Of a stretch of 64,000 nucleotides of DNA, positions 32,642 through 33,962 are shown piece by piece (the stretch's first letter is position 1; each line of letters starts with the position of its first letter). The translations under genes were made by a program, and so were the position numbers. The DNA is taken from positions 35,726 to 99,725 of the forward strand of contig NZ_RJLN01000011.1 of the NCBI RefSeq assembly GCF_003725545.1, written 5' to 3'. The stretch comes from Micromonospora solifontis. Lineage in GTDB: Bacteria; Actinomycetota; Actinomycetes; Mycobacteriales; Micromonosporaceae. The notes beneath the pieces are model-generated. The model had not been told where the DNA came from, ran no database searches, and saw nothing but the letters and a program-made list of their open reading frames with translations.

Positions 32642-33316
32642 TCAGGCCGGCACGGCGGTGACCACGATGTTGTCGCGGTAGTGGCGGGTCTTCGCGTCGA
32701 ACGGCCCGCCGCAGGTGATCAGGGTCAGCCGAGGGCTGCCGTCCCGGGCGAAGTAGCGGTCGAGGGGAATCTTCGTCTTGGCGTACTCCTCCCGGGCCAC
32801 CACCCGCCACCGGCGCTCCCGGCCGTCGTCGCCGGTGGCCGTGACAGTGTCCCCCCGGTCCAGCTCGCGCAGCCGGAAGAACGCGCCCTCGCCCTGGTCG
32901 GCGGCGTCCACGTGACCGGCGATCACCACCGAGCCGCCGTCGGCCTCCAGGCCGGGGCCGTAGCGGTACCAGCCGACGCGGTCGACGCTCGGCGGCACCT
33001 CGAACTCGTCGGTGCGCTGGTTGACGCCGACCGGGTCGACGGTCGCGGTGACCCCGATCGCCGGGATGCGCAGCCGCACCGGTGGGATGGTCGCCCCGCC
33101 CGCCGGCAGGGCGCCCGCGTTCACCGGCACCCCCGCCGAGTCACCGGTGGCGGCGGCCGAGGCGGTCCGGGTGGGGGTGGCGCCGGCCAGGGCCGCCGCC
33201 TCGTCGGCGCCGACGTCCTCGGCGGGCCGCGACCCGCACGCCACCAGGGTGGCGACGGTGAGCGCGGCGGCGCCGGCGGCCATCGCCGCCAGCGCCCCGC
33301 GGTCGCGTACCGTCAC
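32642..33316 (-). CDS. Class F sortase with lipoprotein-like signal
   Basis: This 224-aa protein begins with a hydrophobic leader containing the lipobox-like LVAC. An Ala/Thr-rich spacer precedes the sortase barrel. The catalytic His (VVIAGHVDAA), Cys (TLITCGG) and Arg (TRHYRDNIVV) are present. Class F sortases of actinobacteria attach proteins to the cell wall. The substrate is unknown. The GTG at 33314-33316 overlaps the stop of the DUF4397 gene as GTGA, so the two are coupled. That partner gene is truncated here. Confidence 0.87.
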   Translation of the reverse strand: MTVRDRGALAAMAAGAAALTVATLVACGSRPAEDVGADEAAALAGATPTRTASAAATGDSAGVPVNAGALPAGGATIPPVRLRIPAIGVTATVDPVGVNQRTDEFEVPPSVDRVGWYRYGPGLEADGGSVVIAGHVDAADQGEGAFFRLRELDRGDTVTATGDDGRERRWRVVAREEYAKTKIPLDRYFARDGSPRLTLITCGGPFDAKTRHYRDNIVVTAVPA

Positions 33317-33840
33317 CGGCGACCGGTCCGGGCGGTGGCCACCCGCGCCCCGCCGCCGACCAGCAGCAGCACGCCGGCACCGGCCAGCACGTACCACCAG
33401 GTGTCCACGCCGGTGCCGGCCTGGCCGCCGGTGCCGCTGGGCACACCGCCCGGGGCCGAGTGCAGCCCGCTGATGGTCTGGGCGACCAACTTCAGGTTCT
33501 TGTCCGAGGCGGAGCCGATCGCGTAGACGATCGTCGCGGTGCCCTCCTTCAGGTTGAGATCGGCCGGGCCGATGGCCACGGTGTCGGTGCCGGCGAGCAC
33601 CACGTCGGCCTTGACGGTGCCGGCCGCCACGTCGGCCTTGGCCTCCTCGGGGTTGGTCAGGTCCTCGAAGACCGGCTTGCCACCGGCCCGTACGTCGACC
33701 GCCGGGGCGGCGGCGGTGTGCCGGACGATCAGCCGGGCCTTGCCCGCGCCGACCTTGGCGACGTCGTTGACGAACGGGGTGATCTCCGGCTTGCCGTCGG
33801 CGCTCAGGTGGGCGGCGAGGCTGATGTTCGCGCCGCCCGG
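33313..33840 (-). pseudogene. 5'-truncated DUF4397 surface-protein gene
   Basis: About 176 C-terminal residues remain. They include two DUF4397-like beta units (ARLIVRHTAAAPAVDVRAGG, DVVLAGTD), a Gly/Ser linker, a membrane segment (WWYVLAGAGVLLLVGG) and a basic tail. The frame runs upstream to about 33840 with no ATG, GTG or TTG before a stop at 33859-33861. The first usable start (33630) lies inside the domain. The signal peptide and first ~100 residues of a normal family member are missing. The break coincides with the break in the divergent sigma gene. No clear LPXTG motif is seen despite the coupled sortase. Confidence 0.75.
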
Positions 33841-33962
33841 GGGTGCCGCTCGGGACGGTCAAGAGCCACATCCGACGCGGCATGCAGAGCTTGAAACGCA
33901 GATGGGAGGTGGACGGTGCAGCACCTGGACCACGACCGGCTGGTCTTCCTGGCGCTCGGTGA
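33840..33962 (+). pseudogene. C-terminal remnant of an ECF sigma factor
   Basis: Reading GVPLGTVKSHIRRGMQSLKR from 33840, about 40 codons encode the recognition helix of sigma region 4 and the normal C-terminal tail. The frame stops at 33960-33962, overlapping the anti-sigma start as expected for a coupled sigma/anti-sigma pair. Regions 2 and most of 4 (about 150 residues) are absent. Upstream DNA belongs instead to the DUF4397 gene on the other strand. The sigma factor cannot be functional in this arrangement. Confidence 0.75.

Follow-up and report, generated by a model that had tools for sequence, protein, structure and literature searches.

The window analysed here is a stretch of 64,000 nucleotides from Micromonospora solifontis, taken from draft assembly G000 (contig C13, positions 35726–99725). 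Between two conserved flanking genes it contains a small module composed of a sortase gene, the remains of a DUF4397 gene and of an extracytoplasmic function (ECF) sigma factor gene, and an anti-sigma gene:

31379–32557, minus strand: NifS-type cysteine desulfurase gene (presumed); open frame, conserved left flank
32642–33319, minus strand: sortase gene; 225 amino acids, frame whole, predicted promoter lost
33313–33840, minus strand: 3′ remnant of the DUF4397 gene; approximately residues 99–276 of a 276-residue relative, lacking the signal peptide and the initial part of the domain
33838–33843, no strand: junction; ~1,026 bp of intact relatives absent, 3–4 bp common to the flanks
33840–33962, plus strand: 3′ remnant of the ECF sigma gene; approximately residues 162–201 of 201, stop codon at 33960–33962
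33916–34671, plus strand: anti-sigma gene; 251 amino acids, frame whole, overlapping the sigma tail, predicted promoter lost
34798–35757, minus strand: etfA (electron-transfer flavoprotein alpha) gene (presumed); open frame, conserved right flank

Both flanking genes are named here after the protein families to which we take them to belong. In most loci a NifS-type gene was matched next to the module or, where the module is gone, next to the empty site; of the 160 genomes of the genus, 158 gave an EtfA match. The sortase matches the Pfam Sortase profile (E 9.8e-20); its score against the NCBIfam class F sortase model (122.2 bits) lies under the cut-off of 166. Of the DUF4397 profile, positions 69–119 of 119 remain (51 of 119 kept), in agreement with a preliminary description of this DNA, which had reported a minus-strand gene without its signal peptide and first domain half; the listed open reading frame (ORF) in this frame starts only at a GTG at 33630. 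The sigma gene has likewise lost everything upstream of GVPLGTVKSH, as that description held: sigma-70 regions 2 and 4 are found in the sigma factor of the intact relative G018, and the window retains the tail only. The anti-sigma protein scores 68.4 bits against the NCBIfam anti-sigma model (cut-off 100), and its translation contains an HxxxCxxC motif. RskA_C (PF10099) gave no Pfam match at E <= 1 in the window protein, and is matched in its homologues at loci L108 (8.5e-13) and L120 (4.5e-14).

At 33840 the DUF4397 gene and the divergently transcribed sigma gene break off at the same base. That two divergent genes lose their 5′ ends at one junction near this position had been proposed from the window alone, and is confirmed by alignment to the orthologous locus of intact relatives: in all 11 aligned across the junction, the two alignment blocks meet at most 2 bp from 33840, with ~1,026 bp absent from the window. 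In the G018 alignment, window position 33840 matches both the DUF4397 flank (L042:2854) and the sigma flank (L042:3881). The inter-flank length is 1,026 bp in G018 and G116 and ~1.01–1.08 kb over the 11 relatives, and the junction ends share a microhomology of 3–4 bp, as judged by eye from the alignment. Relocation of the missing 1 kb within the genome is unsupported, as a search of the G000 assembly returned, besides the sigma tail, only four short matches of 36–53 bp; no second sigma gene of the same kind was found there at E 1e-30. The assembly thus contains a single clean junction, with the missing stretch not found elsewhere in it, the configuration expected of one natural deletion.

The same configuration would result from an assembly or library artefact, in which the strain does carry the 1 kb and the false join stems from reads that skipped it. 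G000 is a draft (227 contigs, 5.9 Mb, 93.15% complete), smaller than most relatives, and the few base pairs common to the junction ends would be compatible with a template jump as well. A further assembly of the window species was not found, the best DUF4397 identity among the matches listed being 96%. Arguing against an artefact is the ordinary composition of the missing stretch, with a G+C content of 70.6% in G018. Neither a strong palindrome nor extreme G+C was found in this stretch in the relatives; in G070 the sole features of this kind are a 14-nt palindrome (86%) and imperfect arms separated by hundreds of bases, with no long tight palindrome. The collapse of a GC-rich hairpin, which had been offered as an alternative to deletion, is weakened by these observations, and an artefact is less likely than a deletion. 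The contig itself also speaks against an artefact: when 52 gene-like ORFs of G116 were compared with the 100-kb contig, 10 were partly covered and 7 uncovered, and the DUF4397–sigma pair is the sole neighbouring pair cut at one base, the 8 other partly covered ORFs being resolved in part only.

Lost with the missing stretch is a divergent pair of promoter-like elements. Located between the DUF4397 and sigma genes of intact loci (n = 85) is the element GCATCC-N17-CG(A/T), directed towards sigma in 85 of 85 and towards DUF4397 in 84 of 85, with a constant spacing of 17 bases in all those elements; in mononucleotide shuffles serving as a control, a looser form of the element occurred in 1.8% per strand. 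No match is left in window positions 33201–34000. The element presumably resembles the SigK promoter; a SigK promoter sequence for comparison was not found in the literature searched. The pair probably constitutes two promoters pointing in opposite directions, both recognised by this same sigma factor. The sigma factor would then drive both its own operon and the DUF4397–sortase operon, and one deletion abolishing it would at the same time shut off DUF4397, sortase and anti-sigma. A single deletion of roughly 0.8–1 kb across the shared promoter, as the preliminary description had suggested, remains the best reading, with the ~1,026 bp gone including this conserved pair. Its picture of what was left behind holds in part. 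The anti-sigma and sortase genes, described as intact, do have open and whole frames, but their predicted promoters are gone; similarly, the proposal that a regulon switch had been removed and its inhibitor kept stands for the anti-sigma reading frame, but not for the promoter of the inhibitor, which was probably lost too. Owing to the loss of both predicted promoters, an active orphan anti-sigma inhibitor in the window strain appears unlikely, and annotating the two ORFs as a working system should be avoided.

The sigma and anti-sigma pair most closely resembles SigK and RskA. Among solved structures, the sigma factor of an intact relative is closest to SigK (PDB 4nqw, E 9.7e-21), SigK ranks second for it in NCBIfam, and as in SigK–RskA the anti-sigma gene lies downstream of, and overlaps, the sigma gene. 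There are also differences: the sigma factor falls under the NCBIfam SigK cut-off (113.4 versus 226 bits), the partner genes are DUF4397 and sortase, and in the window the sigma gene is destroyed. The G018 sigma factor is also without any cysteine, whereas a cysteine pair is present in 56% of ECF19 and 94% of ECF18 sigma factors according to PMC7509140. In that study the cytoplasmic portion of RskA is reported to be sufficient for inhibition of SigK, and RskA is reported to be capable of activating SigK as well.

The state of the module across the genus was established by classing 154 loci of 160 genomes by tblastn cover. The six unclassed genomes, G104, G108, G120, G121, G171 (EtfA place not listed) and G174 (no EtfA match), are absent from the DUF4397 and sigma matches listed, and for G111, G063 and G097 a second EtfA copy was discarded before counting. 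G045 was scored as sigma-less by its empty NifS–EtfA site, despite DUF4397 and sortase genes elsewhere (L079), and G015 and G068 by their DUF4397–sortase loci, with NifS and EtfA not in view. The sigma gene is whole in 95 of the 154 classed loci and broken or gone in 59; a separate sigma search of all 160 genomes gave 96 matches, the partial gene of G056 among them, in agreement with the 95 whole genes. Of the 59 sigma-less loci, 28 gave no match to any part of the module, 27 retain a piece of the anti-sigma gene, 2 have DUF4397 and sortase only, and the last two are G056 and the window. Among the 27 partial loci, 21 retain the anti-sigma piece alone, four have a sortase piece in addition, one has sortase and DUF4397 pieces, and one has nearly whole sortase and DUF4397 genes. 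G011 had no anti-sigma match in the main classing and a weak one (residues 153–194) in a smaller search. In Virgisporangium (L108, L109, L112) the module lies between the same two flanking genes, so its absence with remnants in Micromonospora represents loss and not a lack of gain. Repeated loss of such a sigma/DUF4397/sortase module was not found in the literature within the collection searched, nor was any paper there linking DUF4397 to a sigma factor.

Several loci depart from the common arrangement. Sigma and anti-sigma genes without DUF4397 or sortase detected alongside are present at four loci (L047 in G006, L180 in G113, L254 in G057 and L256 in G138). In Blastococcus and Demequina (L120–L125) DUF4397, sortase, sigma and anti-sigma lie on one strand, the same gene set in another layout, and a tandem pair of DUF4397 genes adjoins the sigma gene in Salinispora oceanensis (L095) and G095 (L258). 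The DUF4397 gene is split across two frames in G061 (L078) and interrupted by an internal TAG in G152 (C3:3949928-3950755), with sigma and anti-sigma whole in both; each is a possible early stage of decay. In G162 (L167) the flanking NifS gene is itself divided over two frames.

The closest counterpart of the window junction is found in G056 (L060), which is assembled as one contig. Here too the DUF4397 and sigma 5′ ends are lost at one clean junction and sortase and anti-sigma remain, with DUF4397 starting from approximately residue 16–20, sigma from approximately residue 100 (a HMMER search places this at 80 and shows one stop) and the anti-sigma aligning whole. The deletion differs in size (~560 instead of ~1,026 bp) and in its end points, and G056 lies on another branch of the tree. 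Clean central deletions of ~960 and 1,430 bp are present in G009 relative to its close relative G075, of ~3 kb in G022 (one contig) relative to G075, and of ~960 bp in G163 relative to G155. Beside etfA in sp. ATCC 39149 (L116), M. veneta (L118), sp. ATA32 (L119), sp. AMSO31t (L106) and M. globispora (L107), the sigma gene is gone, as in the window, and the C-terminal part of the anti-sigma gene is left; compared with these five, the window represents an earlier stage, with sortase and anti-sigma whole and part of DUF4397 kept.

A junction of the same type in a one-contig genome, and clean losses in others, weigh against an artefact in the window. Sigma-less loci are somewhat more frequent among drafts, which would favour one: they make up 21 of 69 loci in genomes with 6 contigs or fewer and 38 of 85 in the others. 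This is a weak trend only (Fisher p 0.095), and poor assemblies were not adopted as the explanation of sigma loss. In independent pairs, loss coincided with draft status in 6.2 and ran against it in 2.7 (averages; the p value has a median of 0.39 and ranges from 0.008 to 1 between single pairings). As the same module is broken or gone in dozens of relatives, some of them assembled in a single piece, the junction in the window is probably a genuine and recent deletion of ~1,026 bp in a module repeatedly lost by Micromonospora species, and an artefact is unlikely.

The number of losses was estimated on a tree of NifS and the end of EtfA, built by a quick method, with SH-aLRT as the only support measure, from the 144 of 154 loci at which NifS was matched. 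The sigma-less state requires 30 changes on this flanking-gene tree, of which at least 18 are forced by the starred branches; since the tree rests on two flanking genes, local recombination could inflate or deflate the count. Shuffled labels required a mean of 44.0 changes, indicating that the losses are repeated yet clustered. The window is placed in a set of 14 rows (support 81), 9 of which, the window included, are sigma-less.

The losses may also follow an order. The anti-sigma frame is whole in 95 of 95 sigma-keeping loci, and is kept in 29 of the 59 sigma-less loci, whole in two (the window and G056) and partial in 27. The pieces retained in these 27 species lie towards the C-terminal end and not in the N-terminal sigma-binding part, so that most remnants keep the end opposite to the inhibitory cytoplasmic part of RskA reported in PMC7509140. 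That the remnant is kept for a function was not adopted, as 11 of the 27 lie in more than one frame. This graded series suggests that sigma and the shared promoter are lost before the inhibitor. Such an order fits the cost of an unopposed sigma factor, and the locus layout predicts part of the same pattern; a law that sigma is always lost before anti-sigma was rejected despite having no exception in 95 loci, as much of the pattern may follow from the layout, in which sigma is central and anti-sigma lies at the edge. Loss through the centre would be tolerated because sigma is never left unopposed, and later deletions would take away what remains, in many cases sparing a C-terminal fragment of the anti-sigma gene next to etfA such as the 27 other species have.

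Selection on the kept pieces was assessed as dN/dS of the window against 20 intact neighbours picked by tree position, with rank 1 the lowest of 21. Values were 0.361 for the sortase (median 0.352, rank 17), 0.154 for the DUF4397 remnant (median 0.156, rank 10), 0.496 for anti-sigma residues 1–100 (median 0.436, rank 19), 0.347 for residues 101–251 (median 0.384, rank 6) and 0.117 for the sigma tail (median 0.049, rank 18); the flanking NifS and EtfA genes rank 1 and 10. Relaxed selection in the kept genes thus gives no clear signal, all values lying inside the range of the intact neighbours. Unchanged dN/dS is expected from a very recent deletion and equally from an artefact, to which it lends some support.

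A whole anti-sigma frame with dN/dS within the intact range (0.50 and 0.35 for its two parts) would also suit a real deletion after which a different promoter keeps the anti-sigma gene active and its product, left free, inhibits a related sigma factor; inhibition of SigK by the cytoplasmic RskA part alone, as reported in PMC7509140, points the same way. This is highly improbable, as the promoter-like pair is gone, the search of G000 at E 1e-30 found no further sigma of the kind, and the 27 other sigma-less species keep the C-terminal side and not the N-terminal sigma-binding part. Under the preferred reading, a recent deletion in a module under repeated loss, the double truncation is one frame of a repeated natural experiment, in which the same module has been lost at the same place many times with graded intermediates. 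As a tentative possibility, this self-controlled sigma/DUF4397/sortase surface module may be actively selected against, perhaps as a surface handle for phages or hosts. It would have been taken apart on at least 18 independent occasions, starting at the shared promoter and proceeding outwards, with no sigma left without a whole inhibitor (0 of 95), and the window and G056 would stand at the first step.

Two other features were observed in the window. At 27526–27529 is an abrupt break at which ~0.67–0.79 kb of three relatives is absent; it lies between a ligA-like ORF ending at 27463 and an ORF at 27529, and cuts neither gene. Positions 39329–44494 span ~5 kb that none of the syntenic stretches of G018, G019 and G116 contains, a likely insertion in the window lineage.
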